Source: Umezawaea endophytica (GTDB lineage: Bacteria; Actinomycetota; Actinomycetes; Mycobacteriales; Pseudonocardiaceae). From it: a DNA stretch of 64,000 nt. How positions within the stretch are numbered: the stretch's first letter is position 1; each line of letters opens with the position of its first letter. Made by a program: the position numbers and the translations under genes. Location: NCBI RefSeq assembly GCF_025061645.1, contig NZ_JANYMP010000018.1:1-64000 (forward strand), in the 5' to 3' direction. Below, piece after piece: positions 3,623-20,940 of the stretch. Under the pieces are notes generated by a model. That model was not told the origin of the DNA, ran no database searches, and was given only the letters and a program-made list of their open reading frames with translations.

Positions 3623-4402
3623 ATGGCAACCCTGGTGTCGTTCCACGCCCACCCCGACGACGAGTGCATCCAGTGCGGTGGCGTCATGCGCAAAGCCGCT
3701 GACGAGGGGCACCGCGTGGTGCTGGTCGTCGCGACCCGCGGCGAGGTCGGCGAGGTGGTCGAGGGTTTCCTCGCCGAGGGCGAACTGCTGAGCGACCGGC
3801 GAGTCCGGGAGACGCACGCCTCGGCGGAGGTGCTGGGCGCCAAGCGCGTGGAGTTCCTCGGGTACGTCGACTCCGGGATGATGGGGGAGCCCACCAACGA
3901 CGCCCCGAACACCTTCTGGACGGCCTCCGTCGAGGAGGCGGCGGCCAGGCTCGCGGCGATCCTGGTGGAGGAGTCCGCCGACGTGCTGACCGTCTACGAC
4001 GACAACGGCGGCTACGGCCACCCCGACCACATCCAGGTGCACCGGGTCGGGCTGCGCGCCGCCGAGCTGGCGGGCACGCCGCGGGTCTACCAGGCCACGA
4101 TGAACCGCGACCACATGAACCTCGGCCGGGCCGCCGCGGAGGCGGCGGGGCACCCGGTGCCCGACGTGGACACCTCGCAGTTCGGCAAGCCTGCGGCCGA
4201 GCTGACCGCGGCCGTCGACGTCACGGCGTACCTGCCCGCCAAGAAGGCCGCGATGCGCGCGCACGCCAGCCAGATCAGCGAGCAGTCGTTCTTCCTCGCC
4301 CAGCCCGACGAGGCGTTCGCCTACTCGTTCGGCACCGAGTGGTTCATCCGGGTCGGCGCCGAGCCGGGCATCACCGAGTCCGACCTGTTCACCGGGCTGT
4401 AG
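3623..4402 (+). CDS. PIG-L family zinc deacetylase
   Basis: Protein of 259 aa with the LmbE/PIG-L fold. The metal-site motif AHPDDE lies at residues 9-14 and the second motif HPDHIQVH near 133-140. The family removes N-acetyl groups from GlcNAc-type substrates (MshB in mycothiol synthesis, Mca in mycothiol-conjugate detoxification, and several antibiotic deacetylases). The length and motifs fit MshB/Mca-like enzymes, but nothing nearby fixes the substrate, so no symbol is given. It is transcribed divergently from the helicase gene across 115 bp and its last 14 bases overlap the convergent HExxH gene. Confidence 0.85.
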   Translation: MATLVSFHAHPDDECIQCGGVMRKAADEGHRVVLVVATRGEVGEVVEGFLAEGELLSDRRVRETHASAEVLGAKRVEFLGYVDSGMMGEPTNDAPNTFWTASVEEAAARLAAILVEESADVLTVYDDNGGYGHPDHIQVHRVGLRAAELAGTPRVYQATMNRDHMNLGRAAAEAAGHPVPDVDTSQFGKPAAELTAAVDVTAYLPAKKAAMRAHASQISEQSFFLAQPDEAFAYSFGTEWFIRVGAEPGITESDLFTGL

Positions 4403-5543
4403 CCAGCCGCCGGTGCTCGTCGGCCAGCGCTCGGGCCCGTTCCAGCGCGGCGGCGGGCACCGGTTCGTCCGCCCACCCGGCGAGCACCTCGGCCATCCCG
4501 GTCACGAAGTCCCGTCCGACCGCGGTGAGCCTGCCGCTGCCGAGCATCGTCGCGGTCGCCTCCAGCGCGGCCGTCCGCCAGCGGGCGAACTCGACGTGCC
4601 CGCCCTCGTCGTGGTCCCGCTCCCGCCGCCAGAAACCCGCCACGCCCAGGTGCGCGTACGTGCCGTGCAGCAGCCCTCCCAGCGGCCGGGGGTCGTCGCG
4701 CCACGGCGCGTAGAACCGCTGGCCGGGATCGGGCCGCAGCAACGGGAACAGGTCCATCAGCGCCACCAGCTTGGTGTGCTGGAGCTCGTGCGCCAGCGTC
4801 ACGGCCACCGACCGCGCGTCCGGCCCGAGCGACAGGAACACGCACCCGAACGCGTCCGCCTGCGTCGCGCTGCTCATCCCGCCCGCCGCCGAGCGCAGCG
4901 GCGTCAGCACCGCCACCGCCTCCCGGAACTCCTCGGCCACCGCGGGGTGCCGCCGGACCAGCAGTTCCCAGCCCGCGGTGATCCCCTCCCGCCACCGCGC
5001 CAGGTCGATCCGGTGGTCCACCAGCAACGCGTCGGGGACCCCGCTCCACCGGTCCAGCGCGAACACCACCCCGCCGCCTACGGCGATCTCCGGTGTCGGC
5101 GTCCACTCCAACCGGTCCACCGGCACGGTCCCCCGGACCGGTCGGTCCACGTATCCCAGCGACGGCAGGGAGAAGCCTGCGGACGGCGGGAAGTCGACCT
5201 CCGCGTCGAGGCCCGCCCGCAACGCCGCCGCGGCGGCCACGTGCGCCAGTTCGGCGGGCCGGGCGACGCCACCCCGGCTGAGCGCCACCGCCGTCCTGGT
5301 CGCCCACGCGCTCACGGCCGGGTGGTCCAGCACCCGCCGCACCTCGACGGGCGCGGTCCGCTGGGCCTCGACCAGCACCTCGAACGCCCGCCGCACCGAC
5401 GGGTCCGCCCCGACCACGAACCGGAGCAGCAGCAGCGTCCGGCTGCGCCGCGCCGCCACGAGCGCCCGCACCGCCCCGACCCCGCCGCCACCGCGGGCCA
5501 GCGCGGCGAAGTCCGCCACCGTCAACGAGTGCGGACGCGTCAC
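4389..5543 (-). CDS. HExxH-motif protein of the FxSxx-COOH locus
   Basis: Protein of 384 aa starting at GTG. The zinc-metallopeptidase signature HELQH is visible near residue 250 (context TLAHELQHTKL), preceded by an alanine-rich helical region. This matches the HExxH domain that in many actinomycetes is fused to, or encoded beside, the radical SAM enzyme FxsB of FxSxx-COOH systems. Here it is a separate gene 28 bases downstream of fxsB, so both are probably one transcript. Whether it cleaves the modified peptide or has another role is unknown; the protease role is inferred from the motif alone. Confidence 0.8.
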   Translation of the reverse strand: MTRPHSLTVADFAALARGGGGVGAVRALVAARRSRTLLLLRFVVGADPSVRRAFEVLVEAQRTAPVEVRRVLDHPAVSAWATRTAVALSRGGVARPAELAHVAAAAALRAGLDAEVDFPPSAGFSLPSLGYVDRPVRGTVPVDRLEWTPTPEIAVGGGVVFALDRWSGVPDALLVDHRIDLARWREGITAGWELLVRRHPAVAEEFREAVAVLTPLRSAAGGMSSATQADAFGCVFLSLGPDARSVAVTLAHELQHTKLVALMDLFPLLRPDPGQRFYAPWRDDPRPLGGLLHGTYAHLGVAGFWRRERDHDEGGHVEFARWRTAALEATATMLGSGRLTAVGRDFVTGMAEVLAGWADEPVPAAALERARALADEHRRLATAR

Positions 5544-5571
5544 GAGCCGGAACCCTTGCCGGGCAACGGTG

Positions 5572-6675
5572 TCACGACACCCGCTCCAGGTCGCGCGCGA
5601 GCCGTCCCCGCACGTGCCTGATGAGCCGGTACAGGTCGGCGCAGTACACCGACGGCCGGTCGAACCCCGCGCCCTCGCGGTACCGGTGCGCCCGCAGCCC
5701 GCCGCCGCACACGGCGTGCACGTCGCACGCGCGGCAGGAGGCGGACAGCCCGGCGAGCCCGGCCTGCCGCGCCCGCACGTCCGGCAGCCCCAGCGCCGCG
5801 TCGAACGAGTCGCGCGCGACGTGCAGGCCGGTCACCGCCGCGCCCTCGAACGCCGACGCCAGGATGTCCGACTGCTCGATCATCCCGTCGGTCTCCACCA
5901 CGACCTGGAGCGCCGGGCTCAGCCCCACCCCCTCGACCCTCGACCGGCCGCCCAGCAGCACGTGCACGACCTCCTCGAACAGCCGCACGCCGGTCTCCCG
6001 CACGGGGGCGCCGTACCAGCGGTCGAACACCGCGATCAGCCAGTCCGCGTAGCCGAACCCCGGCGGGGGAGAGCTCCAGTTCCCGTGCGGCAGCAGGAAG
6101 TCCACCGTCGGCGGCTCGAACGCCAGCAGCGACTCGTAGGTGCGGACCGGGTCGTTGCGCAGGTCCACCACCGCCAGCAGGCCCGCGAACAGCGGCCGGA
6201 ACTCCGGCGACCGCAACGCCGACAGGCCCTCCAGCACGGCGGTGTGGCTGTCGCCGCGGTGCCGCGCGGTCGCCGCCGCGTCGCCGTCCAGGCTCACGCC
6301 CACCCGCACGTCCAGCCCCAGCAGCACCTCCAGGAACCGGCGGTCGAGCAGCGTTCCGTTGGTCTGCGCGGAGAACCGCGCGGGGACCCGCGACCGCACC
6401 GCCGTGACCAGGTGCTCGATCACCGCGGGGCCCGCCAGGAGCGGTTCGCCGCCGTGCAGCACGACCTCCACGTCGGCCAAGCCGTGCGCGTGGGCGTGCT
6501 CGGCGATCCGCGCGGCGGTGTGCTCGACGACCTCGGGGGACATCACCCGCGGCCGGGACCGCCAGCGCTGGTCGGCCATCTCGTAGACGTAGCAGTAGTC
6601 GCAGGCCAGGTTGCACCTGCTGTGCACCTTGACGACGAACTGGCGGAACGGCCGCACGCGCACCCCCGATGTCAT
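5572..6675 (-). CDS. fxsB: FxsB-type radical SAM/SPASM peptide maturase
   Basis: Protein of 367 aa. The radical SAM cluster motif CNLACDYC (CxxxCxxC) is at residues 21-28, followed by HGGEPLL near 94, typical of peptide-modifying radical SAM enzymes. The C-terminus holds a SPASM-like cysteine set (CRACDVHAVC near 313-322 and a further Cys near 343) for auxiliary iron-sulfur clusters. Known relatives act on short peptides ending FxSxx and form cyclophane-type side-chain crosslinks. The candidate substrate gene begins 161 bp away on the opposite strand. ATG at 6675 is chosen because the motif is close to the start, as in the family. Confidence 0.9.
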   Translation of the reverse strand: MTSGVRVRPFRQFVVKVHSRCNLACDYCYVYEMADQRWRSRPRVMSPEVVEHTAARIAEHAHAHGLADVEVVLHGGEPLLAGPAVIEHLVTAVRSRVPARFSAQTNGTLLDRRFLEVLLGLDVRVGVSLDGDAAATARHRGDSHTAVLEGLSALRSPEFRPLFAGLLAVVDLRNDPVRTYESLLAFEPPTVDFLLPHGNWSSPPPGFGYADWLIAVFDRWYGAPVRETGVRLFEEVVHVLLGGRSRVEGVGLSPALQVVVETDGMIEQSDILASAFEGAAVTGLHVARDSFDAALGLPDVRARQAGLAGLSASCRACDVHAVCGGGLRAHRYREGAGFDRPSVYCADLYRLIRHVRGRLARDLERVS

Positions 6676-6836
6676 CCCCTTCCGCCATGAAACACGCCCG
6701 CGGGCCGCGACGGTGGTCCGATCGGCCTATTCGGGGCGTTACCAGTTGTCGGCCCACTAGGATGGCGAACGGATCCAGGTCGATCGGCAGGCACGGAACC
6801 CGCGGCTTTGCGGACTCGGGTGTAGGGGGCGAGCGC

Positions 6837-7004
6837 ATGGAGAGCGACGGGGTGCTGGAGTCCGAACTCCTCGACGTCACGGGGATCGACCTGGCGCGGC
6901 TGGAAGCCTTGCCGGACGCCGTTCTGCGGGCCTCGCTGCGCCGGATCCTGGCCGAGGACCTGGAGATGCCGGACCAGTACGCGGCCTTCCAGAGTTCGTT
7001 GTAG
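6837..7004 (+). CDS. fxsA: FxSxx-COOH precursor peptide (FxsA-like)
   Basis: A 55-aa peptide that ends in FQSSL, an exact FxSxx carboxy-terminus (F51, S53). The N-terminal part is acidic and leucine-rich (ESELLDVTGIDLARLEALPDAVL), like a leader recognised by the maturase, and the core region is about PDQYAAFQSSL. ATG at 6837 follows a purine-rich AGGGGGCGAG stretch. It is divergent from fxsB and sits 142 bp before the FxsT-like gene. The call rests on the tail motif and the neighbourhood; the modified residues are not known from sequence. Confidence 0.88.
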   Translation: MESDGVLESELLDVTGIDLARLEALPDAVLRASLRRILAEDLEMPDQYAAFQSSL

Positions 7005-7146
7005 TCACCGTCGGCGGAGCCGACGACCAGGCTGCCGCCATCCGAGTGAATCTGCGCTTCGAACGAAGTCCTTTCGGGCGTAGATCCACCGGAACCCGTT
7101 CCACTTGGTTTATTCGACGAGTTCACGTCCCCGGCCTGGAGTGGTG

Positions 7147-10100
7147 ATGAGCGGTCCGCTGAGCGTTCCGGGTCAAGCAGGTGTCGTCGCGTTCCTGTCC
7201 GCGACCGGCGGCACCGGTCGGACCAGCGCCGTGGCGAACCTGGCCTGGGTCCTGTCGAGCGCGGGCAAGCGCGTGCTGGTGGTCGACTGGGGTTCCGAGG
7301 TGCCGCGGGTCCGCGAGTACCTGGAGCCGTTCCTGGTCGGCCGCGGGCCGTTCCCGACGCAGCTCGGTCGCGGGCTGCTGGCGGCGTACACGTCCACGCC
7401 GGTGCGCGACGGCTACGAGCCCACCGCCGAGCGGTTCGCCCTGCCGGACGCCACGGGCCACATCGACGTGATCGCCCCGATGGAGCCGGACGCGGCGGGC
7501 CGGTTCTTCCCGGACTTCCAGCACGGCGACCCGAGCGCGATGACGGACCTGCGCACCCGGCTGGTCGAGGCGGACTACGACCACGTCCTGATCGACGCGC
7601 CGACGGGCGCGGGCGAGGCGTCGCTGACGCTGATCGCGACCCTGTGCGAGGTCGCCGTCGTCTGCTTCCGCCCGCGACCGAGGGCGATCTCGGACGCCGC
7701 CGACCTGGCCACCCGGCTGCGCCGCCGCGCCCCGGTGCGGATCGACCTCGTCCCGGTGGCGACCCTGTTCGACGACGCGGACGAGCTGTCCAGGGCGCGG
7801 CGCATCCGCTCGGCCATCCACGCGGCGTTCGCCGAGTTGCTCGCGGGCCAGTCCCGCAGGCTGCCGGACGACGGCTCGATCGAGATCCCGTACCGGCCGT
7901 ACGACGCGTTCGACCCGCTGCTCGCGATCCTGGTCGAGGAACCGCGGCAGGGCGGCACGCTGGAGCACCAGTACGGCCGCCTGGCGTCCGCTGTGACGGG
8001 CGGTGAGGTCAACGGGGTCGCCCAGGTCTCCCCGACCCTGCGGGCCCGCTACCGGCGCGTCTTCGGCCTGGACTCCACCGTCGAACCGGACCGGGTCCTG
8101 GTCGCCTACTCGCCGCCGGACCGGGCGTGGGCCGACTGGGTGCGCGGCCAGCTCCACCGCGCGGGCGCGCAGACCAGGTCGCTGACCGAGGCCGGGTCGT
8201 GGGCGGACGCCGTCCACCCGCCGGGCCTGGTGGTCATCTCCTCGCCGAACCTGGCCGGGTCGGCCGCCCAGTCCGCCGTGGACGAGTTCACCCGGACCGG
8301 CAGGCCGACCGTGCTGCGGCTGCTGCTCACCGACACCGAGATCGCCCCGGAGGACGTGGCGAACACCGTCGCCGTCCGCGACCAGCACCACGAGTCGATG
8401 CGGGCCAGGCTGCTCACCCACTTCGGCCTGATCGACCGGCCCGGCACCGTGCAGGACGTGGGGATGCGCGTGCCCGGCGCGGAGCCCGCCGTGTTCGGCC
8501 TCCCGCCGCGCCACCCGCTGTTCGTCGGCCGGGACGACGACCTGGAGGAGCTGCGGGACCGGCTGTCCGAGGCGGGTGACGCGCGGGTCGTCGTGACGCT
8601 GGGCGGCGTGCCCGGCATCGGCAAGAGCGAGCTGGCGCTGGAGTACGCGTACCGGTTCGCCAGCGACTACGACCTGGTGTGGTGGCTGTCGTCGCAGGAC
8701 CGCCAGTCCGTGCTGGTGGGCCTGGCGAACCTCGCGGCCAGGCTGCGCCAGCCGGGGTCCACCGACTTCGGCACCACGTCCGCGCTGGAGCGGCTCGCGG
8801 GGGACCCGGCGTACCAGCGGTTCCTGCTGGTGTACGACAACGCCGACGACCTGGCGGTGCTCGACGAGCTGCTGCCGGACGGCTCCACCGGCCACGTCCT
8901 GGTGACCTCGGGCAACGCCCCGGAGACCGCGATCGAGCTGGTCCCGATGAGCGCGGGCGACAGCGCCAGGCTGCTTGCCGACCGGGTGCCCGGCCTGTCG
9001 CCGGAGGACTCCGAGGGGGTCGCGCTCGCCGCCGGGCACCTGCCGCTCGCGCTCGACCTCGCGGGCGCGTGGCTGGAGGAGACGGCGCACACCGAGCGCG
9101 AAGCGGGCAGCACCGTCGCGGACTCGGCGGCGTGGGCCGTCCGCACGTTCCTCGCCCACCTCGACGGGCAGCAGCCGAACGGCCCGACCGACACCACCGC
9201 CCGCGTGCTCGCCGTCGTGGTCGGCACGTTGCGCGACTCCCCGACCGGGCGCATGGCCGTGCTGCTCGCCCAGCTCTGCTCGTTCCTCTCGCCGCAGGGC
9301 GTCGACCTCGGCCTGATCCGCTCACCCGCGCTGCTGGCGCGGCTGGTGGTCGCGGGTGGCGGCGACGCCGAGCCGCTGCGGCTGGACGCGGGCGAGATCG
9401 ACCGCGTGCTGTGGACCGGGGCCAGGTTCGGCCTGTTCCGCGTCGACTGGGGCGACCAGTACACGCTGCGGCTGCACCGGGTCGTGCAGAACGCGCTGCG
9501 CGAGGGCATGGGGGAGCTGGAACGCGCCTCCCGCCGCGCGGAGGTCCTGTCCTGCCTCGCCGCCTACGCACCGTCCGAAGTGGAGCTGACGGCGCCGGAC
9601 CGAGCGAGCCGCTTCACCGAGCTCCAGACTCACGTGTTCCCGTCCGGTGCGCTGGACAGCGACGACGACATGGTGCGCCGCTGGCTGGTCAACCAGGTGC
9701 GGTTCCTCTACACCGACGGCGGCACGGGGGTGCGGAGGTCCGCGCTCGACCCCGGCGAGAAGCTCCTGGAGACGTGGACCAGCCGCCACGGCACCGGCGA
9801 TCCGCTGCGGGCCAGGCTGGCGACGCAGCTCGCCAACATCCACCGCGTGCTCGGCAACCCGTTGCAGGCGCTGCGGCTGGACGACGCCGCTTTGGCCCAG
9901 CAGCGCCGTTCGCTCCAGCTCAGCCACCCGCAGACGCTGATCACCGCCCGAGGTCGCGGCGGCGACCTGCGCGGGCTCGGCCTGTTCGACGAGGCGCTGG
10001 TCGAGGACCAGGCGACGTGGGAGGGCTTCCGCCGCGCGCTGGGCGAGGACCACCCGCACACCCGCAGCGCGGCGAACAACCTGGCCATCTCGATGTTCCT

Positions 10101-10923
10101 GTCCGGCGACCCGGCCGGAGCGCTCGAACTGGAGGAGGACAACTACCGGCGCAGGCGGCGGCTGTTCGGCGAACGCGACCCCGACACGTGGTTCTCGCTG
10201 TCGCGGATCGGTGTCTACCAACGGGAACTGGGCGACTACCCGAACGCGCTGACGTCGTTGATGACCGCGATGCAGAAGCTCCAGACGCTGCGCTCCGAGC
10301 TGAACCCGATGCAGTTGATGGCGCGCTGGAACCACGCCATCGCGCTGCGCCGGGCGGGCAGCGCGCGGGACGCGAAAGCGCGCAACGGCAAGACGTTGCG
10401 CGACCTCCGGGAGATCTTCGGCCCCCACCACCCGGACACGTTGGCGTGCTCGCTCAGCTTCGCCGCCGACCACCGCACCGTCGGCGGCGACCCGGCGCTG
10501 GCCGTGGAACTCGCCTCCAACGCCCTGCGCGGGTTCCTGACCGAGGTCGGGCTCGCGGAGCAGCACCCGTACGTCGGGCTGTGCAGGCTCGGCCTCGGGC
10601 TGTCGCTGCGCGCGGCGGGCGACGCGACCGCGGCGATCAGGGAAGTCCTGGCGGGCCAAGAGGTCCTGCGCGCCCGGCTGGGCGAGACGCACCCGTGGAC
10701 GCTGGCCGCCGACGTCGACCTGGCCCGCGTGGTCTTCGCCTCCGGCGACGTGCCGCGCGCGGTCGACCTGATCACCACCGCCCACACCGACTGCGTCGAG
10801 TTCCTCGGCGCCGAGCACCCGTTCACGGTCATCGCGGCGCACGACGTCCGGCTCGCGCGGCAGGCGGGCGATCCCGACCAGGTCTGGAGGGAGATCGATG
10901 TCGACGTTCCCCAAACGTCCTGA
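7147..10923 (+). CDS. fxsT: FxsT-like protein: MinD-like, TIR-like, NB-ARC and TPR domains
   Basis: Protein of 1258 aa. In order: a MinD/ParA-like P-loop at the N-terminus (SATGGTGRTS, residues 18-27, with Arg where the usual Lys stands); a TIR-like segment from about 315 (RVLVAYSPPDRAWADWV); an NB-ARC/STAND ATPase with GGVPGIGKSE near 486; and TPR-type repeats from about 870 to the end, many with LGEDHPHTRS or LGETHPWTLA patterns. This matches the FxSxx-COOH system tetratricopeptide protein. STAND proteins usually oligomerise on sensing a ligand, so a sensor/effector role is inferred. ATG at 7147 is preceded by GGAG at 7137. The end overlaps the next gene by 26 bases. Confidence 0.87.
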   Translation: MSGPLSVPGQAGVVAFLSATGGTGRTSAVANLAWVLSSAGKRVLVVDWGSEVPRVREYLEPFLVGRGPFPTQLGRGLLAAYTSTPVRDGYEPTAERFALPDATGHIDVIAPMEPDAAGRFFPDFQHGDPSAMTDLRTRLVEADYDHVLIDAPTGAGEASLTLIATLCEVAVVCFRPRPRAISDAADLATRLRRRAPVRIDLVPVATLFDDADELSRARRIRSAIHAAFAELLAGQSRRLPDDGSIEIPYRPYDAFDPLLAILVEEPRQGGTLEHQYGRLASAVTGGEVNGVAQVSPTLRARYRRVFGLDSTVEPDRVLVAYSPPDRAWADWVRGQLHRAGAQTRSLTEAGSWADAVHPPGLVVISSPNLAGSAAQSAVDEFTRTGRPTVLRLLLTDTEIAPEDVANTVAVRDQHHESMRARLLTHFGLIDRPGTVQDVGMRVPGAEPAVFGLPPRHPLFVGRDDDLEELRDRLSEAGDARVVVTLGGVPGIGKSELALEYAYRFASDYDLVWWLSSQDRQSVLVGLANLAARLRQPGSTDFGTTSALERLAGDPAYQRFLLVYDNADDLAVLDELLPDGSTGHVLVTSGNAPETAIELVPMSAGDSARLLADRVPGLSPEDSEGVALAAGHLPLALDLAGAWLEETAHTEREAGSTVADSAAWAVRTFLAHLDGQQPNGPTDTTARVLAVVVGTLRDSPTGRMAVLLAQLCSFLSPQGVDLGLIRSPALLARLVVAGGGDAEPLRLDAGEIDRVLWTGARFGLFRVDWGDQYTLRLHRVVQNALREGMGELERASRRAEVLSCLAAYAPSEVELTAPDRASRFTELQTHVFPSGALDSDDDMVRRWLVNQVRFLYTDGGTGVRRSALDPGEKLLETWTSRHGTGDPLRARLATQLANIHRVLGNPLQALRLDDAALAQQRRSLQLSHPQTLITARGRGGDLRGLGLFDEALVEDQATWEGFRRALGEDHPHTRSAANNLAISMFLSGDPAGALELEEDNYRRRRRLFGERDPDTWFSLSRIGVYQRELGDYPNALTSLMTAMQKLQTLRSELNPMQLMARWNHAIALRRAGSARDAKARNGKTLRDLREIFGPHHPDTLACSLSFAADHRTVGGDPALAVELASNALRGFLTEVGLAEQHPYVGLCRLGLGLSLRAAGDATAAIREVLAGQEVLRARLGETHPWTLAADVDLARVVFASGDVPRAVDLITTAHTDCVEFLGAEHPFTVIAAHDVRLARQAGDPDQVWREIDVDVPQTS

Positions 10924-11908
10924 GGAGCTGTACGAGGAGGTCGCGGACCACCTCGGGCCCGAGTTCGGCGAAACCCGCCAGGCGTGCCACGACGCGATGA
11001 CCAAGAGCACCGCGCTGCGCTACCTCGCGCACTACAGCAGCGCCGTGTTCGACTTCGGCCTGGACGCGCTCGGCGACCCGCCGCCCCCTCCCGACGCGCT
11101 GCCCGGCACCACCCGCCGCGACGAGCTCAAGAGGCTGGGCCGCCAGCTCGGGTTCACCGTCACCACCCTGGACCGCTCGCTCCAGGAGGCCCGCACGGGC
11201 AGGCTGATCCGCACGGTGATCCAGACCGAGGAGGGCGCGGTCTTCTGCGACTCGGTCGTGCCGAGCGAGAACGTGGTCGGCCTCGTGGTCGACCGCTCCG
11301 CGACCGAGCACCGCGAGATCCCGCTGGCGAGCGCGCCGGACGTCCGCGCCGCGGACCAGGCCGTGGCCGAGCTGGCGAGCACGCTGCGCACCCAGGTCCG
11401 GTTGCCGTCGCTGAACCCCGGCGGCTGGGAGTCCGCCGACCTGGTCGAGCCGGTCCCGTCCACCGACTCGGCGCCGGAGCCGTTCACGACCGTGCTGGCC
11501 GGGCCGGGGGAGGACACCGAGCGGCTGCTCGCCGCGTGCGTGCGGGCGGCCCGACCGGACGACCTGCACCTGGTCGCGTACTGCTCCCAGGGCGAGCTGC
11601 CGGTCATGGTCGACCACCTCGACCACCCGTCGTTGGCGCCGTTCTTCACCCAGATCGCGGTCGAGAGCCGCCGCCGGTTCTACCAGGGCTTCAGCCGCGA
11701 GCTGGGGGCGTTGGCGCACCGGCTGAACCGGACGACCAGCACCGCGCTCGGGGGAGTGCTGGTGCGGCTGGTGCTCGACATCGAGATGGGCGCGATCTAC
11801 TTCTACCGCCTCGGTCCCGGCGACTACCTGGTCGGCGTCACGATCGACCAGAACCGGGTCGTGGGCGCGGACGACCGGATGGCGGCACTGGCGCTGGAAC
11901 TGCGGTGA
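10898..11908 (+). CDS. Uncharacterised protein coupled to fxsT
   Basis: Protein of 336 aa that I do not recognise. It has no signal peptide and no transmembrane helix. The first 60 residues look helical, followed by a proline run (PPPPP near 62), and the C-terminal third has hydrophobic strands (GAIYFYRLGPGDYLVGVTI). Its start lies inside the last 26 bases of the FxsT-like gene and its stop overlaps the antiporter start (GTGA), so it is translated within the same operon. This coupling suggests a role in the FxSxx system or in its output, but that is inference from position only. Confidence 0.75.
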   Translation: MSTFPKRPEELYEEVADHLGPEFGETRQACHDAMTKSTALRYLAHYSSAVFDFGLDALGDPPPPPDALPGTTRRDELKRLGRQLGFTVTTLDRSLQEARTGRLIRTVIQTEEGAVFCDSVVPSENVVGLVVDRSATEHREIPLASAPDVRAADQAVAELASTLRTQVRLPSLNPGGWESADLVEPVPSTDSAPEPFTTVLAGPGEDTERLLAACVRAARPDDLHLVAYCSQGELPVMVDHLDHPSLAPFFTQIAVESRRRFYQGFSRELGALAHRLNRTTSTALGGVLVRLVLDIEMGAIYFYRLGPGDYLVGVTIDQNRVVGADDRMAALALELR

Positions 11909-13083
11909 ACGGCGCCCTGCGGTCGGTGGCGCTGCTCGCGGCGGCGGGCGCGGGGTGGGCGGGGGCCGAGCTGTTCCGGCTCGACGACGTCGACTCCTCC
12001 GCGGGCTACCGGTTCTTCGTCACGGCGCTGCTCGGCTTCGGCCTGTACGCGAGCACCCGCGGCATCGAGATCGACGAGTTCCGCACGCACCTGCGCACGG
12101 TCGTGCTGGCGGTGACGCTCGGCGTGCTCGCCAAGGTCGCGTTCATCTTCGGCGTGCTGTACCTGGTGTACCGCGATCCCGACCACCTCGTGCTCGCCAT
12201 CGCGCTCGCGCAGATCGACCCGCTGTCCGTGGCCGCCGTGCGGCTCAAGAGCCGGATGTCCGAGTCGGCCAAGGCGCTGCTCGCCGCGTGGGCGTCGTTC
12301 GACGACCCGATCACCGTGCTGCTGACCGCGTACTTCACCGCGTTCGCGCTGGGCGCCCACGACACCGTCGGGACGGGCCTGACGTCGTTCGGCACCAGCC
12401 TGCTGTGGAACGCGGTGCTCGTCGCCGCGGCCTACCTGGCGCACCGGGTGTGGAAGGCGCGGCGCACCACGTCCGACGCCCCCCGGCCGTGGCCGGTCCG
12501 CTGGGCCGTGCGGACCGGGCTGATCCTCCTGCTGCTGGCAGGCGGGTTCGTGGCCGTGAAGTACGCGCTGCTGCTCGCGCTCGCCGTCATCGGTCTGTTC
12601 TTCCGCCCGAACCTCGGCAGGTCGCTCGACGGGCTGACCCAGGTCGCCCTGTACACGGCCGCGGTCGCGGTCGGCGCGGTGCTCGTCGGCGGGGTGCGGA
12701 TCGGCGAGGGCGTGGTGCTCGGGATCGCCGCGTACGCCGCGCAGGTCGTGGTCGCGCTGGTGCTGACCGTGCCGAAGGTGTGGCGGGGCGACCGGGTGCG
12801 GCTCGCGCTCGGCCAGCAGAACGGGCTCACCGCGATCATCCTGGCGCTGCTGCTGGAACCGAACTTCCCCGGCACGATCGCCGTCGTCGCGCCCGCCATC
12901 ATCGTGGTGAACGTGCTGCACGCGCTGTGCAACGGCCTGTACGACCGGTTCGCCGCGCCCGTCGGCGACCGGGACGACGACCCTCAGACGCCACCCGCGC
13001 GCGACGACCGCCACACGGCGCGCCTCACCCGCGGGCTCAAGAACTCCAACGCCGCCGTGACCCGCTTCCGCCGCCCCGCCTGA
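11905..13083 (+). CDS. Cation:proton antiporter-like membrane protein
   Basis: Protein of 392 aa, GTG start overlapping the previous stop by 4 bases. It has about ten hydrophobic segments and the sequence style of the CPA1/NhaP superfamily (AQIDPLSVAAV and WASFDDPITVLL, with acidic residues inside membrane segments as in ion-binding sites). The usual NhaP cytoplasmic tail is short and basic here. It would exchange Na+ or K+ for protons at the cell membrane. Position at the end of the fxsT operon makes it a possible effector of that system. The last 100 bases overlap the convergent ATPase gene tail to tail. Confidence 0.72.
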   Translation: MNGALRSVALLAAAGAGWAGAELFRLDDVDSSAGYRFFVTALLGFGLYASTRGIEIDEFRTHLRTVVLAVTLGVLAKVAFIFGVLYLVYRDPDHLVLAIALAQIDPLSVAAVRLKSRMSESAKALLAAWASFDDPITVLLTAYFTAFALGAHDTVGTGLTSFGTSLLWNAVLVAAAYLAHRVWKARRTTSDAPRPWPVRWAVRTGLILLLLAGGFVAVKYALLLALAVIGLFFRPNLGRSLDGLTQVALYTAAVAVGAVLVGGVRIGEGVVLGIAAYAAQVVVALVLTVPKVWRGDRVRLALGQQNGLTAIILALLLEPNFPGTIAVVAPAIIVVNVLHALCNGLYDRFAAPVGDRDDDPQTPPARDDRHTARLTRGLKNSNAAVTRFRRPA

Positions 13084-15257
13084 TTCACCGCCGCCACCAT
13101 GCCCGAGTTGCGCGCCGTCCACGGCGGCAGCTCGAACAGCGGGTCGAGGCCGAACACCGGCAGGTACTCGGAGATGCCGTCGTAGGCCCGGCAGATCTGG
13201 TCCAGCCGGTCCTCGGCGTCGGTGGTCAGCGCCGCGCCGTCCGCGGTCTCGGCGGTGAACCACCGCGCCACCGACTCCCGGAAGACCCGCACCGACTTCT
13301 GCATCAGCACGGCGCGGCCCGCCGCCTCGCGGTAGTCGATCGACCGCAGCCTGCGCTGCACGGCCTCCTGCGTCTCGTCCGGCGCCGGTTCGAAGGCCTC
13401 GTCGAGCATCGCGTCGAGCTGGGTCAGCTCTTCGAGCACGGCCACCGCGTCGCGGAACAGCTTCTCCACGTCCGGCGGCAGCGTCGGCCCCGTCTGCTCC
13501 TCGGCGCCGCCCGCGCCGGGCAGGGTGGTGAGCCGGTGCTCGATCGAGGCGAGCTGCCGCTCCGTCGAGTTCCGGGCGCTGTCGACGTGCTCGGTGAGCT
13601 GCTCGATGAACCCGTAGATGCTGGACTGCTGGCGCGCCACCATCTCGATCCGCTGCCGCAGCACCTCGGCCTGGTCGCCGTCCGCCGGGCCGGAGAGCAG
13701 GTGGCCGATCGCCCCGACCAGCGCCTTGAAGTCCTCGGCGAACGTGCGCTCGACGTGCACCAGCGGGTCGCGGCCGATCAGCTCGCGCACCTGGATCGCC
13801 GCGCCCTCGACCAGCACGCCGTTGACGACCACCAGCACCTCGGCGCCCTCGGCCGCGTCCTTCACCGACGCGATCCTGCGCCGCACCTCGGCCACGTTCT
13901 CGCTGTCCAGCAAGGACTGCGTGACCAGCACCGCGCACCCGCCCTCCCGGCCGGGGAAGGTGATCCAGAAGTCCGCTTTGGACACCTCGCCCGCGCCGAG
14001 CAGGTAGAGGTGGTGGTAGTCGTACCCCGACGCGTCCAGCAGCCGCCGCACCACGGCGTGGATGTCGTCCCGGCTGAGCGAGCCGAACAGCTCGCGCGCC
14101 GCCTGCTCCACCACCTCGTGGGTCACCAGCGCGTCCGGGCCCTCGTCGTCGACGATCCGGAACACCCGGTGGCACAACCGGATCACGTTGCGCGCGTTGC
14201 CGTTGGCGACTGTCGTGAGGTAGCCGATCGAGTCCATCGTGAACGGGGCGAGCGTCGGACCGCCCTGCGCCAGTTGGACGAACTCCGCGACCTCCTCCTT
14301 GCTCAGCCCGGCCATCGTCACGGTGTGCGCGATGCGCTGCCGCACGCTCGGCCCGAGCACGGTCCGGAAGTCCGGCAGCCCGGACAGCACCAGGCACGCG
14401 CCCGCCTTGGAGAACACCTCCAGCAGCGTCTGGAACGCGGCCAGCGTGCTGGGCCGCGGCTGGTTGTCCAGCGAGAAGATCTTGTCCAGCTCGTCCACGA
14501 CCAGCACGAACCGCCGCCGCCTGCCGCCGAACAGCAGGGCGAACACGCCCATCGCCTCCAGCGCCGCGACCTCGCTGTCGATGGGTTTGGAGATGCCGCG
14601 CTCGACCAGCACCTGGTCCGGCTGCCCGCCGGTCAGCCACGCCCACACGAAGTGCTCGAAACCCTTGCGCAGCAACAACGCCAGCGCTGTGCCGAAGTCC
14701 TTGTTCTCGGTGACGTCCCGCAGGGCGGCCTGCACCTTGCGCAGCAGGGCGCTCTCCATCAGGCCCATCCGCTCCACGACCTGCTCCGGCTGGAGGTCGC
14801 GGGTGTTGAGCCACTCGACGGTGTTCGCGGTCAACCCGGTGCTCTGCAACGACTCCGCGACCACGTCCGCGTAGTAGTCGCTGACCTGCGCGAGCACGCC
14901 CGTGAGCCCGACCTTGTGCATGAACCGGCGGTACAGCTCGATGAAGCTCTCGGCGGTCGCGTCCAGGTACATGGCGTTCGCCGGGTCGGTCAGCTCGGCG
15001 CGCGCGTGCCGGACGAGCTGCACGGCCAGGTGCGTCTTGCCGGTGCCGTAGTCGCCGACGATCGCGATGACCGTGCCCGCGTGGTCGCGGTCGTTCGAGG
15101 CCCGCAGGTAGGCGGTGACGTGCGAGCGCGCCTGGCGGATGGCGTCCGTCTCGATCGTCACCTCCGACGAGTCGTGCGAGTCGAAGTCCGTGATGCGCGC
15201 GACCGCCATCGGCGAGAAGGGGTTCCCCCGTGCGGGCGGTTCGCCGTTTCCGCTCAT
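12984..15257 (-). CDS. AAA/STAND-like ATPase, third gene of an overlapping trio
   Basis: Protein of 757 aa. Walker A GDYGTGKT is at residues 68-75 and a clear Walker B (VLVVDELDK) near 250, with an AAA/ORC-like ATPase core to about 420. Then follows a region (near 430-520) with beta/alpha character that includes FWITFPGREGG, and a C-terminal helical segment rich in Glu/Arg (AVAVLEELTQLDAMLDEAF) that may be coiled coil. I do not recognise a named family. The ATG overlaps the stop of the upstream small ATPase by 4 bases, so the two are translationally coupled. A regulated, membrane-linked conflict role is inferred from architecture and neighbours. Confidence 0.8.
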   Translation of the reverse strand: MSGNGEPPARGNPFSPMAVARITDFDSHDSSEVTIETDAIRQARSHVTAYLRASNDRDHAGTVIAIVGDYGTGKTHLAVQLVRHARAELTDPANAMYLDATAESFIELYRRFMHKVGLTGVLAQVSDYYADVVAESLQSTGLTANTVEWLNTRDLQPEQVVERMGLMESALLRKVQAALRDVTENKDFGTALALLLRKGFEHFVWAWLTGGQPDQVLVERGISKPIDSEVAALEAMGVFALLFGGRRRRFVLVVDELDKIFSLDNQPRPSTLAAFQTLLEVFSKAGACLVLSGLPDFRTVLGPSVRQRIAHTVTMAGLSKEEVAEFVQLAQGGPTLAPFTMDSIGYLTTVANGNARNVIRLCHRVFRIVDDEGPDALVTHEVVEQAARELFGSLSRDDIHAVVRRLLDASGYDYHHLYLLGAGEVSKADFWITFPGREGGCAVLVTQSLLDSENVAEVRRRIASVKDAAEGAEVLVVVNGVLVEGAAIQVRELIGRDPLVHVERTFAEDFKALVGAIGHLLSGPADGDQAEVLRQRIEMVARQQSSIYGFIEQLTEHVDSARNSTERQLASIEHRLTTLPGAGGAEEQTGPTLPPDVEKLFRDAVAVLEELTQLDAMLDEAFEPAPDETQEAVQRRLRSIDYREAAGRAVLMQKSVRVFRESVARWFTAETADGAALTTDAEDRLDQICRAYDGISEYLPVFGLDPLFELPPWTARNSGMVAAVNQAGRRKRVTAALEFLSPRVRRAVWRSSRAGGV

Positions 15258-16225
15258 CGCTGCTTCCCCAGTTCGTTCCGGGAACCGTTGTTGAAGAACG
15301 CGACGATGTCGTCCACGGTCACGACATCGCCTTCGCCGCAGCTTAGTCCCCGGCCGCGACGGCTCTCGTAAGTTCCGTGCAAAGTTCGCTGGAGCTGGGC
15401 GACCGACCTCGCCCAGCCGGTCAGGAAGTCGATGGCCTCATCACTCATCCGTGGGTATCCGCCCACTTTCGAGTGGCGCTGGAGCCGGTCCTCGACGAAC
15501 CTGCGCGCGTCGCCCTCCCGCAGGGCGCCCACGTGCAGTGCCAACGGCGGAACCCACGCCTCCAGTTGGAGCACGATGTCCGCCACCTCGTCCGGGTCGA
15601 GCATGTCCGACTCGGCCACGAACAGCACCTTCGGACCAGCGAAGGCCCGCGCGTACTGGATCACCTCGGCGGCCAGTTCCCCCGGCGTCGGCAGCAGCAC
15701 CACCAGCACCAGGTCCTCGGCGAGCGCGGCACCCAGCCTCGGGTAGATCCGGCGCGGCGTGTCGCGGTCGGGGCTGAGCTGCTCCACGGCCTGGGGCCGC
15801 AGGGCCTCGTTGTCCACCAGCCGCCCGAACAGCTCGTCGCACACGTGCGCGGCGCGGTGCTCGATCGACTGCGCGGGCCCGTCCGGCAGGCAGCCGGTCA
15901 GGTCCAGCACCAGCCCGCGCGCGTTCGGGCCCAGCTCGCGGTCCTCCCGCCGCCGGTCGACCTCCTGGACGACCCAGTCGGCGCACCGGTGCGCCAGCGC
16001 CGTCTTGCCGCACCCGGACTCGCCGGTGACCAGGACCAACCGGCCCTCGGACAGCAGGGCAGAGAGGTCGCCCATCTGCTGGGTGAAGTCGTCGAACTGG
16101 AAGTCGGCGTCGTCGACCTGGACGTAGAAGTCGCGGTGGCCCGCGTTCTTCCACGGGCACAGCGGGCGCATCGGGGTGCGCGGCCAGCCGGGCAGCGGGA
16201 ATGGGTTGAGCCAGGGCTTCGTCAT
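15254..16225 (-). CDS. Small P-loop ATPase with weak Walker B, second gene of trio
   Basis: Protein of 323 aa. Walker A GESGCGKT lies at residues 68-75. No convincing acidic Walker B follows: the candidate strands are RGLVLDLTG, DLVLVVLLP and KVLFVAESD. The N-terminus is rich in Pro/Trp (PWLNPFPLPGWPRTP), and the C-terminus ends in a helical segment. It overlaps the membrane-protein gene upstream (ATGA at 16222) and the large ATPase downstream (ATGA at 15254), so the three products are made together. It may be a switch subunit binding nucleotide rather than an active ATPase; that is inference. Confidence 0.75.
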   Translation of the reverse strand: MTKPWLNPFPLPGWPRTPMRPLCPWKNAGHRDFYVQVDDADFQFDDFTQQMGDLSALLSEGRLVLVTGESGCGKTALAHRCADWVVQEVDRRREDRELGPNARGLVLDLTGCLPDGPAQSIEHRAAHVCDELFGRLVDNEALRPQAVEQLSPDRDTPRRIYPRLGAALAEDLVLVVLLPTPGELAAEVIQYARAFAGPKVLFVAESDMLDPDEVADIVLQLEAWVPPLALHVGALREGDARRFVEDRLQRHSKVGGYPRMSDEAIDFLTGWARSVAQLQRTLHGTYESRRGRGLSCGEGDVVTVDDIVAFFNNGSRNELGKQR

Positions 16226-16965
16226 CGGGACCGCGGGCTCATCTCCGGGTGTCGCCGCGCGGGACGGGTGAGCGCCGTCGCGACCAGGAGCACCTCGTCG
16301 CGCAGCTCGTCCAGCCTCACCCGGAGCTGGGCGCCCCGAGCCCTCGCGGCGTCGCCCTGCCCCGCGGGCTGGGTCAGCGACTCGCCGAGCGGACCTTCGC
16401 GCAGCCCGTCGAGCAGCGCCTGGACCCGGCTCCAGCCCCGGTGCTCGGACTTGACCAGCGCGAGCTGCGACACGAGCTTGGCCCGCGAGGTCAGCACCGG
16501 GCCCTCCGGCTTGCCGCCGACGTACGCGGACAGGTAGGCGGCGACGGCGTTCTCGAACTCGACCAGCGCGCCCCGCAGGTCCTCGCCCTGCTTGCGGCCA
16601 CGGGCGACCCGGTCGCGCCACGCCGTCGCCACGTACGCCAGCAGCGCGCCGAACAGGCCGGTCAGGAACGGCAGCGCCTGGGTGAACCAGTCCGGCGACG
16701 GGGCCTTCTCCGACCCGTACAGCGCCGAGCACACCCGCTCGAACTCGGCGGGTTTCGCCGCGCGCCACGCCGGGACGTCGCTCGGCACCTCGACGCCGAC
16801 CGCCTTGCCCGCGTCGCGCAGGTTCCGCTCCGACTTCACGGTCAGGCAGAACACGGCCTTCGCGTCGTCCTCGGCGTCGGCGCGCGCCGGGCCCCCACCG
16901 CCGACCAGCAGGACCGCAGCGACGCCGAGAGCGGCCACCACGCGCTTCCCCACCACAACCCCCAT
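16222..16965 (-). CDS. Membrane-anchored protein, first gene of ATPase trio
   Basis: Protein of 247 aa with no recognised family. Residues 8-29 form a signal peptide or first membrane helix ending ARADA; a short exported region contains two cysteines (about C40 and C79) that could form a disulfide; residues 97-115 form a membrane helix (LPFLTGLFGALLAYVATAW); the rest is a cytoplasmic, charged, helical tail of about 130 residues. It leads a three-gene unit joined by 4-base overlaps with two P-loop ATPases, so a sensing or anchoring subunit is likely. Start ATG at 16965 gives the signal-like N-terminus. Confidence 0.75.
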   Translation of the reverse strand: MGVVVGKRVVAALGVAAVLLVGGGGPARADAEDDAKAVFCLTVKSERNLRDAGKAVGVEVPSDVPAWRAAKPAEFERVCSALYGSEKAPSPDWFTQALPFLTGLFGALLAYVATAWRDRVARGRKQGEDLRGALVEFENAVAAYLSAYVGGKPEGPVLTSRAKLVSQLALVKSEHRGWSRVQALLDGLREGPLGESLTQPAGQGDAARARGAQLRVRLDELRDEVLLVATALTRPARRHPEMSPRSR

Positions 16966-17223
16966 CGACGGCAGATCGTCAACTCTACCGAGGAAGGGTC
17001 GCGCTGGGTGGTGGGTTCGTCACCGAACAGCCGCGTCTTCGTGGTGGTGGTGGCGAAGCATCCGGCCCTGGACCGTGTCGGCTGCTCGTAGCCGCGTGTC
17101 GTGCGCCATCCGGGTGTTTTCGGTTGGTCCTGCCGTGGCGTTGGTCGGGCATCAGCGCGGTGAACGCGAGGATGTCCGTCCTGCGGGCCGCCAGCGCCGG
17201 CAGGCCGTGTGGAGAGGACAGGG

Positions 17224-17568
17224 ATGATCGAGCTGCGCGTCTACCTCGTCGACAACGGCGGGATCGGATCGTTGCGGACGTGGTTGGCCGACGTGCCCGA
17301 GGCCTCGGTCGAACCGGTGCCGCGCGCGTCGCGGCCGGGGGAGCAGGGCGACGCGTGGGACTTCCTCAGCGTGCTTTGCGGCACCGGCGGCGCGGTGACC
17401 GTCGTGGTGAACGCGCTGGCGACGTGGATCGAGTCGAAGGTGACCCACGCACGGGTCGTGATCGGCGAGACCGAGGTGGAGTTGCGTGGACCCGATCCGG
17501 AAGCGTTGACCCGACTGGTGCGAGCGGCCGGTGAGATCGAGCGTGCGGCCGGGCATGAGCGTGATTGA
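17224..17568 (+). CDS. EACC1-like small protein partner of caspase
   Basis: Protein of 114 aa. It has the pattern described for effector-associated constant component 1 (EACC1): an N-terminal strand and short helix (RVYLVDNGG...LRTWL), a central hydrophobic helix (GGAVTVVVNALATWIES) and a strand pair (ARVVIGETEVELRGPDPEAL). EACC1 is a constant partner in bacterial caspase-containing conflict systems, probably as adaptor. ATG at 17224 is chosen because GGAGAGG sits 7 bases upstream; an upstream GTG at 17209 lies within that site. The gene overlaps the caspase gene by 14 bases. Confidence 0.78.
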   Translation: MIELRVYLVDNGGIGSLRTWLADVPEASVEPVPRASRPGEQGDAWDFLSVLCGTGGAVTVVVNALATWIESKVTHARVVIGETEVELRGPDPEALTRLVRAAGEIERAAGHERD

Positions 17569-19249
17569 CTTCTCCCGGTCACGGGCGATCCTGGTCGGCA
17601 CCTCCGAGTACACCGCTGGATTGGCGAAGATGGACGCCGCGGCCAACAGCCTGGCGGCCGTTCAAGCGCTGTTGACCGGTCCGCTGTGCGGCTGGTCGGA
17701 ATCCCGCGTCACGTCGTTGCTGAACAGACGCACCCGTGACGGTGTCGACCAGCAGATCGCCACCCTCATCCACGACACGACCGACGTGTTGCTGTTCTAC
17801 TACGTCGGCCACGGCCAACTCCTCGACGGCGAGGACCTCGGGATGGCTTTGGTCGACACCCATCGCGACCCCCGCATGCGCTACACCACTTCCCTGCGGC
17901 TGAGCCACCTGCGCCACGAGTTGAAGTACCGCTGCCCCGCTCGGGTCCAGGTCGTGATCCTGGACTGCTGCTTCTCGGGCTTGGCCACCCGCAACACCCA
18001 AGGCGCCGACCTGGCCGAGCAGGTCCGCCTGACCACCAGGATCGAGGGTGCCTACACGCTGGCCGCCTCTCGCGCCTCCCAGAAAGCCGTTCACCAGGAC
18101 GGTGGGGACGGGCTGACCTACTTCACCAAGGTTCTCACCGAGGTCGTCCAAGACGGCATTCCCGGCGCCGGGCCCTACCTGGCCCTCAACGACCTCCACA
18201 CCGAGATCGCCACCCGGTTCCGGCACCTGGACCTGCCCCAGGACCACCTGCGGCCTGAACCGACCACGCTCGTCGTGGACACCGCCGAAAAACTTCCTCT
18301 CGCCCGCAACGCCGCATGGGCCCCAGCGCGCACCACCGGCGAACCAGCGGTGAAGCCAGCCGACTCCGCTGCGGATGTGGAAGCCGAGGCCGTCGACATC
18401 GACCCGCCGTCCTCGGCGACCCCGGCCGAGGAGTCGGAGGCGAAACGACGTGGTGCCGCCCGTGACGCGCTCGAGGGAATCGCCGTACCAGCCGAGATCC
18501 GGTCGGCGGGCCCGAACCTGCGCCTGTGGTCGTGGGCGGTCCTCGCGATCGACGTGGTGGTGTCGGCCTGGCTGTGGTGGTCGGTACCACTGGCGGTGGT
18601 CACCACCGTGGTGGTCGTTCTCCTCGTGGCCGCGAAAGTGCCTACCGAGGTGTACCGCGTCAGGCTCACCCCTCAGGTGACGATCCCCGCCGAAGCGGTC
18701 GCTCCCGACCACTGGTACCGCTTCGGCAGGTCCCGGCCGACATGGTTCCTGAAGCCCTTCGAGAGCGTTCTGGTGGTGTTCGCCCCCACACCGGCATCGC
18801 CACGCGTGCGGTCGTTCGCGCGGCCGAGCGGTTGGCGGTTCAGCGGATGGTTCAGCGTCCGATCGAGCGAACGAGGGGGTGGAGTGTGGTTCGACCTGGT
18901 GGACCTGGCGCACGGCCGTTCCCTGGAGCACTGGTACGTCGAGTCCGGTGGTCGTTCGGATCTCAACGAAGGCTCGTCGCCGACAGGGCTGGTGGGGCTG
19001 CAGGTCACCGCGGGCAACTGCTCGGCCAAGGTTCGGTGGTCGTCACCCGGCGTGCTGCATCGGCCGACAGGAATCCTCAAAGAGGGCTGGCGGCGGTCTT
19101 GGTGGTCGGATGGGTTCGACGAGGTACTGCACTCCGGTCTCTACCACCTCCGCGCCAGCCGAGCCCGCAGACTCGAGGCTGCCATCCGGCGCCACCGCCC
19201 GGATCGACCGACTCCGGATGTGACGCGGCAGCGGAGCAGCGAGGAGTAG
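17555..19249 (+). CDS. Caspase-family peptidase with C-terminal membrane module
   Basis: Protein of 564 aa. The N-terminal 250 residues are a caspase-like (peptidase C14) domain: RAILVGTSEY at the start, catalytic His in YYVGHGQL near 90, and catalytic Cys in ILDCCFSG near 140. A low-complexity linker follows, then two adjacent hydrophobic helices near 325-370 (WAVLAIDVVVSAWLWW and VVTTVVVVLLVAA), and a beta-rich cytoplasmic C-terminus of about 190 residues that I do not recognise. With the EACC1-like gene overlapping its start this forms a two-gene death-effector-like module. Predicted activity is proteolysis of cellular targets; no target is visible. Confidence 0.85.
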   Translation: MSVIDFSRSRAILVGTSEYTAGLAKMDAAANSLAAVQALLTGPLCGWSESRVTSLLNRRTRDGVDQQIATLIHDTTDVLLFYYVGHGQLLDGEDLGMALVDTHRDPRMRYTTSLRLSHLRHELKYRCPARVQVVILDCCFSGLATRNTQGADLAEQVRLTTRIEGAYTLAASRASQKAVHQDGGDGLTYFTKVLTEVVQDGIPGAGPYLALNDLHTEIATRFRHLDLPQDHLRPEPTTLVVDTAEKLPLARNAAWAPARTTGEPAVKPADSAADVEAEAVDIDPPSSATPAEESEAKRRGAARDALEGIAVPAEIRSAGPNLRLWSWAVLAIDVVVSAWLWWSVPLAVVTTVVVVLLVAAKVPTEVYRVRLTPQVTIPAEAVAPDHWYRFGRSRPTWFLKPFESVLVVFAPTPASPRVRSFARPSGWRFSGWFSVRSSERGGGVWFDLVDLAHGRSLEHWYVESGGRSDLNEGSSPTGLVGLQVTAGNCSAKVRWSSPGVLHRPTGILKEGWRRSWWSDGFDEVLHSGLYHLRASRARRLEAAIRRHRPDRPTPDVTRQRSSEE

Positions 19250-20804: not shown

Positions 20805-20940
20805 GCCCTACTACCGTCCGTGTGTCGCCTGCTCAGGGGGTCCCGCAGCACTCTACCGGCGGCGCGGCGACGCCCTGTCCAGTGAGAAATCCGTCGCCGT
20901 AAGGGTGAAATTCACGTGAGCCAGGGCTAGGGTGCCCCGC

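Follow-up and report, generated by a model that had tools for sequence, protein, structure and literature searches.

A FxSxx peptide locus of Umezawaea endophytica in which FxsT is joined by a tandem Roadblock protein and, often, by an antiporter-like membrane protein

Introduction

What does a ribosomally made, enzymatically modified peptide do beside a TIR/NB-ARC sensor and a putative cation antiporter? The question is raised by a locus in a 64,000-nucleotide stretch of DNA of the soil actinobacterium Umezawaea endophytica (assembly GCF_025061645.1, contig NZ_JANYMP010000018.1, positions 1 to 64,000 of the forward strand; hereafter the window), where the genes of an FxSxx-COOH peptide system, including that of the multidomain protein FxsT, are followed by genes for a 336-residue protein and an antiporter-like protein. 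An earlier note on this DNA took the locus for a signalling or defence loop rather than the source of a secreted antibiotic, and proposed that the last two genes are part of it. FxsT is common in the class to which the window belongs.

Standalone FxSxx peptide systems of actinobacteria were set out in a 2020 paper that we take to be by Kaur, Burroughs, Iyer and Aravind. The accessible text of that paper (PMC7159879) describes an AP-ATPase akin to a TIR-bearing one, with an inactive MinD/ParA-like domain; it proposes the peptide as a toxin or signal and sees a peptidase in a zincin-like protein that we equate with the HExxH protein. The window shares the FxSxx peptide, the radical S-adenosylmethionine (SAM)/SPASM enzyme, the zincin-like protein and the AP-ATPase with TIR and inactive MinD/ParA-like domains; since such systems are described there, its FxsT and peptide genes are a member of that kind. 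Beyond the described system, the window has a tandem Roadblock gene, an antiporter gene and a convergent AAA operon, and neither 'antiporter' nor 'roadblock' occurs in the accessible main text of PMC7159879. No publication making a Roadblock protein or an antiporter part of an FxSxx system was found among titles and abstract openings, with few subscription papers covered. What has been published is the peptide/FxsT core; for the Roadblock, antiporter and AAA parts no publication was found.

Results

The 336-residue protein is a constant companion of FxsT. FxsT directly precedes the two-domain Roadblock gene in all 25 two-domain loci of a 42-locus scan set (the other 17 loci being distant), and in 23 of the 25 the two genes overlap or lie at most 30 bases apart with the start codons chosen. 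Of 394 sampled genomes from the class of the window, 23 gave Roadblock matches, 17 of them over both domains and six over the C-terminal domain only; all 17 two-domain matches, the window included, adjoin FxsT. When shared loci are counted once (L018 equals G046, and L031 and L069 are the same) and L008 is added, there are 41 distinct two-domain loci, and the Roadblock gene adjoins FxsT in every one. FxsT itself passed its cut-off in at least 113 of the 394 genomes. On an FxsT tree of 56 rows (55 different), made by a quick method from rows picked by hand and not at random, the Roadblock label (42 positive and 14 negative rows) needs two changes, against a mean of 12.8 after shuffling. The membership proposed for the 336-residue gene is thereby borne out: it is not a gene that occurs mostly without fxs genes in relatives. 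The grouping goes beyond chance: the gene block is found again in other genera.

Gene content of the loci was determined by tblastn, which corrected a gene caller that had missed the antiporter gene and the second AAA gene of the window and had laid antisense or other wrong frames across the antiporter gene in L026, L029 and L036. The queries included each locus's own called protein, so values of 100% are self-matches; presence was scored first from the window proteins. Contig ends cut the locus in L025, L031 and L032, upstream in L025 and L032. Counts over the 394 genomes are lower bounds, with two candidates scored per genome for FxsT and for the 757-residue AAA+ protein, five for Roadblock and four for the antiporter.

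In its AlphaFold model (pLDDT, the predicted local distance difference test, 90.5) the 336-residue protein has two tandem Roadblock/LC7 folds. Its halves are homologous to each other, and its fold matches include MglB, Ragulator and Mon1-Ccz1, which are regulators of GTPases. It resembles MglB and the Ragulator-type proteins in the fold of each half and differs from them in carrying two folds in one chain and in having no recognised GTPase partner. At E values of 0.1 or less, PF03259 missed the protein of the window and matched one of 24 family members (E 0.028); we therefore speak of a Roadblock fold, not of a member of the Pfam family. In L053, L054, L071-L073, L075 and L083-L085, which are FxsT-Roadblock loci of a second FxsT branch, the Roadblock gene is followed by one for an HExxH-containing protein of about 670-900 residues, cut by the contig end in L073; FxsB was not found in the stretches of these loci.

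The protein encoded behind the Roadblock gene has a profile match to the NhaP-type Na+/H+ antiporter 4cza (E 4.2e-4, residues 44-174) in which the core motif is aligned; the D-D motif is kept, with DD where 4cza has ND, and all 14 aligned family members have AQIDPL and SFDDP unchanged. No antiporter Pfam family was found in these 14 members, which gave just two chance-level matches. We predict a divergent NhaP relative within the cation/proton antiporter (CPA) superfamily. The antiporter is present in 18 of the 25 two-domain scan loci, directly behind the Roadblock gene and on the same strand in 17, and is linked in 24 of the 41 FxsT-Roadblock loci (the 18 scan loci, the window, L070, L071, L072, L074 and L076). 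The family (E up to 1e-20) occurs in 16 of the 394 genomes, though the match in G245 is partial and that in G183 weak and far from the Roadblock gene; 15 of the 16 also have a Roadblock domain (Fisher p 1.5e-20, uncorrected for relatedness), and at 12 of 17 places the antiporter lies within 11 kb of the Roadblock gene. On an antiporter tree, the 23 fxs-linked rows require two changes. In L017, from Lentzea, the antiporter slot behind the Roadblock gene (10926-12167) holds a pentapeptide-repeat protein (PF13576, 9.6e-26) with one predicted membrane stretch.

The same family also stands beside a single-Roadblock gene, with no FxsT in the stretch, in seven of the 17 distant scan loci, and the pair occurs without FxsT in five of the six genomes with a C-terminal domain only (G151, G308, G351, G399 and G460). 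The pair is thus a module existing in both settings, and the membership proposed for the antiporter holds in part: it accompanies most fxs scan loci, while its family lives elsewhere as well. In L033, L039, L040, L044, L045, L047, L050 and L077-L081 the single-Roadblock gene, whose product in many cases begins with a hydrophobic segment, adjoins the antiporter family with no FxsT in the stretch, apparently as an unnamed two-gene module.

FxsT scores 747.3 bits against NF040586 (cut-off 300) and 51.9 bits against NF047398, under its cut-off of 90. In Pfam, TIR_2 (E 0.0031) and NB-ARC (E 0.0013) both stay below their cut-offs and the TPRs are strong; the MinD-like matches are weak, and CBP_BcsQ alone passes. 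Across 26 aligned FxsT rows the NB-ARC P-loop is intact in all, the MinD-like P-loop Lys is lost in all, and the signature Lys is lost in 24. TIR NADase effectors have a catalytic Glu; in the 26 rows we read no conserved Glu at the expected place, and close relatives have lost part of this segment. We infer that the MinD and TIR parts are inactive. The wording of the earlier note had implied working TIR and MinD parts, which the missing catalytic residues do not support, and the idea that TIR or MinD catalysis provides the output of the system was set aside on the same ground. Roadblock-negative FxsT proteins with a MinD part (L059, L061 and L068) keep the signature Lys and likewise lack the TIR Glu, so the loss in TIR is probably older than the new partners; that gain of the antiporter caused the decay was rejected, as TIR is decayed in Roadblock-negative FxsT too.

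The peptide genes are those expected. The precursor scores 54.7 bits against TIGR04268 (cut-off 28) and FxsB 431.6 bits against TIGR04269 (cut-off 370), so that both pass the hidden Markov model check that the earlier note had suggested; the HExxH protein scores 170.4 bits against TIGR04267 (3.6e-50; cut-off 40). With FxsT above its cut-off, all parts named beforehand lie where they had been placed, and the overlaps are confirmed. The HExxH motif is kept in 11 of 11 aligned rows including the window, where it reads HELQH. According to the accessible part of PMC12636437, such HExxH proteins act as alpha-ketoglutarate hydroxylases and are also able to cleave the backbone oxidatively. The window protein resembles ChlH, PosC and PflC, as far as they are described there, in its TIGR04267 domain and intact HExxH, and differs in being encoded by a separate gene.

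By tblastn the HExxH gene is found in 23 and FxsB in 18 of the 25 two-domain scan loci. A profile search found precursor homologues in 22; its eight seeds (the window and seven of the 22 loci) match by construction. Precursors end in FESSL or FQSSL in all eight Saccharothrix loci and in FQNxx in Lentzea, Umezawaea and Actinokineospora; those of Micromonospora have FESALDGDD, WQSAIDGDD, or WQN, FGN or FPN cores with longer tails. The L028 precursor has FES plus a tail and that of L030 no clear core; otherwise an aromatic-x-Ser/Asn core is retained. The InterPro entry of MscB is presumably that of the FxsB family. In the accessible text of PMC11002830, MscB is a triceptide maturase that forms Phe-Ser cyclophanes, and the core kept here is as in the motifs of triceptide enzymes. 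FxsB is predicted to act likewise, as a SPASM radical SAM enzyme on an aromatic-x-Ser motif; unlike in the MscB setting, relatives show FxN and WxN variants of the motif. The HExxH gene is present with FxsB absent nearby in L016, L026, L027, L029 and L031. The first four keep a precursor as well, the three Micromonospora loci among them having the WQN, FGN and FPN cores, and their hydroxylase may act without a cyclophane.

The locus does not end with the antiporter gene. The earlier note had placed it at 4389..13083, where all its named genes do lie, and had missed a convergent minus-strand operon reaching 16965. Genes for a 757-residue AAA+ protein, a 323-residue second AAA ATPase and a 247-residue membrane protein are coupled by 4-base overlaps and face the antiporter gene. 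The AAA+ protein is found in 22 of the 25 scan loci, always on the facing strand, and the second AAA protein in 17 (its Pfam scan used the slightly longer frame 15257-16258). Among the 394 genomes the AAA+ protein (E up to 1e-15) occurs in three, all at FxsT-Roadblock loci. Given this linkage, the three convergent genes (AAA/AAA/membrane) probably form a further arm of the system. Around residues 388-523 the 757-residue protein resembles in fold the nuclease part of VC1899 and of Can2/Cdn1, here fused to an ORC-type AAA+; an active nuclease was rejected, since there is no conserved E-x-K motif.

Presence near the window is patchy. Four of 100 relatives, its own genome included, have the locus, and one of two same-genus genomes is without it. 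The window Roadblock protein is 43% identical to the copy of the same-genus genome G001 and up to 63% identical to Saccharothrix copies, and the FxsT tree places the window with Saccharothrix; being nearer to Saccharothrix than to G001, the locus suggests horizontal transfer. The left neighbour of the window locus, a helicase, is shared by seven of eight Saccharothrix loci. Plasmid carriage was rejected, the Roadblock protein having no plasmid match; the 757-residue protein matched, among plasmids, six distant archaeal BREX-type ATPases only (22-24% identity over at most half of the query). Phage families gave nothing for four of five proteins and weak ATPase-like matches for the 757-residue protein.

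Farther right in the window, an EACC1 gene (PF19953, 1.7e-17) overlaps a caspase-domain gene (PF00656, 4e-9) at 17209-19249, a second conflict-type pair by the fxs locus, and 20932-22149 encodes a SLOG/LSDAT_prok protein (PF18171, 5.2e-50). EACC1 is a conflict-system part. SLOG and caspase are likewise parts of conflict systems in the accessible text of PMC7159879. These neighbours fit a conflict island, without proving one.

Discussion

The anatomy of the putative system fits signalling or defence over a secreted antibiotic. We regard it as quite possible, if short of probable, that the locus encodes an intracellular, peptide-linked conflict system of the STAND type, with a receptor like the nucleotide-binding leucine-rich-repeat (NLR) proteins, that the receptor's catalytic effector domains have degenerated, and that a membrane protein now delivers the output. 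By the chemistry of their families, FxsB would link Phe and Ser of FQS into a cyclophane and the HExxH enzyme would hydroxylate the peptide, which could then act as ligand or tether on the TPR/NB-ARC protein FxsT. FxsT would switch or oligomerise through its intact NB-ARC P-loop, the MinD and TIR parts, whose active residues are absent, presumably serving as scaffold. The tandem Roadblock protein would connect FxsT to the membrane effector encoded behind its gene, and CPA-type antiporter activity would shift pH or ion balance and stop growth; transmembrane ion exchange may be the output of the system, whose purpose would be defence, not homeostasis. A fuller version is distinctly tentative: an NLR-like receptor tuned by the modified cyclophane peptide would gate, via the tandem Roadblock adaptor, an interchangeable membrane effector (the antiporter in 24 of 41 loci, the pentapeptide-repeat protein in one), and an antiporter-Roadblock module that also lives alone would have been recruited by an FxsT lineage whose TIR and MinD activities were already lost.

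Several observations weigh against such a system. The TIR Glu is missing in Roadblock-negative FxsT too. The antiporter is missing in seven of the 25 scan loci (L025 and L031 on cut contigs), immediately follows the Roadblock gene in 18 of the 41 loci and, where linked elsewhere, lies 2.7 to 10.7 kb off; in the second FxsT branch it is linked in only five of 16 distinct loci; the swap in the slot is known from one case, L017. FxsB was not found in seven of the 25 loci, L025 and L032 among them. The HExxH, Roadblock and antiporter proteins match no model in PADLOC 2023, whose matches to the others look generic: pVip for FxsB (7.1e-12, a radical SAM likeness), PDC-M28B for FxsT (5.2e-8), and mad8 (2.7e-6) and BrxD (9.5e-6) for the 757-residue protein.

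The antiporter-Roadblock pairs that stand without FxsT, in distant scan loci and in genomes with the C-terminal domain only, may serve ion homeostasis. They favour a different account, in which peptide and FxsT report the state of the cell and set the antiporter for pH or salt balance, as homeostatic or developmental signalling with neither immunity nor death. The helicase kept beside Saccharothrix loci, which indicates that the locus is settled there, and the lack of a plasmid match for the Roadblock protein agree with it; set against the patchy presence, the swapped protein in L017 and the EACC1-caspase and SLOG neighbours, we find this account somewhat unlikely. Another idea is that the Roadblock protein, much as MglB regulates MglA, regulates a nucleoside triphosphatase of the system, either FxsT or the two convergent AAA proteins, with the antiporter a separate, optional passenger. 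The fold matches, the constancy of the Roadblock gene where the antiporter is inconstant, and the frequency of the AAA+ gene speak for it. However, the MinD P-loop Lys is lost throughout, Pfam identified no small GTPase in the set of proteins it was run on, and the antiporter keeps its place beside a Roadblock domain also where the search turned up neither FxsT nor AAA genes, so that we hold it to be unlikely. That FxsB and the HExxH protein are tailoring enzymes of ribosomally synthesised and post-translationally modified peptides might recall an ordinary secreted peptide cluster with coincidental neighbours; with FxsT and the Roadblock gene fixed neighbours across genera, and no exporter or leader peptidase recognised among the Pfam-scanned window proteins (other frames not excluded), this seems very improbable.

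In this lineage a constant adaptor-like partner and, often, a membrane protein with a measurable activity make the path from peptide through receptor to output open to test. Two families without a name in the libraries used, one with a Roadblock fold and one antiporter-like, come to light as well, as does the Roadblock-antiporter pair standing alone in other actinobacteria.

Layout of the locus and minor observations

The HExxH gene and fxsB diverge from the precursor, fxsT, 336-residue and antiporter genes (Table 1). For FxsT we read ATG 7147, with GGAG upstream, as the likely start, not 7105. The 336-residue gene begins at ATG 10898, inside fxsT (stop 10923), and the antiporter gene starts with GTG at 11905, sharing four bases with the end of the 336-residue gene (stop 11908); the antiporter and 757-residue genes overlap tail to tail at their 3' ends.

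Table 1. Features of the locus, in window positions
Feature	Position	Strand	Assignment and basis
HExxH hydroxylase gene	4389..5543	-	stand-alone, putative aKG (alpha-ketoglutarate)-HExxH-type peptide beta-hydroxylase; TIGR04267
FxsB	5572..6675	-	radical SAM/SPASM maturase of a cyclophane-forming family; TIGR04269, Radical_SAM PF04055
FxsA precursor	6837..7004	+	55 residues, C-terminus YAAFQSSL; TIGR04268
FxsT	7147..10923	+	degenerate MinD-like, degenerate TIR, NB-ARC, TPR; NF040586
336-residue tandem Roadblock/LC7 protein	10898..11908	+	AlphaFold model, Roadblock matches, homologous halves
Roadblock fold 1, residues 16-170	10943..11407	+	
Roadblock fold 2, residues 204-336	11507..11905	+	
CPA-superfamily antiporter-like membrane protein	11905..13083	+	AQIDPL and SFDDP motifs; profile match to 4cza
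757-residue ORC/Cdc6-type AAA+ ATPase	12984..15257	-	nuclease-like fold without E-x-K motif
Second AAA ATPase, 323 residues	15254..16225	-	AAA_22, 2.4e-6
247-residue membrane protein	16222..16965	-	homologues in 7/25 scan loci; without Pfam match

Two further FxsT-type proteins adjoin HExxH genes in one genome (L051 and L052, on C31 and C1). TIGR04268 matched once in this genome, with 150 of 879 candidates scored, and the peptides of the two loci may be of another type.

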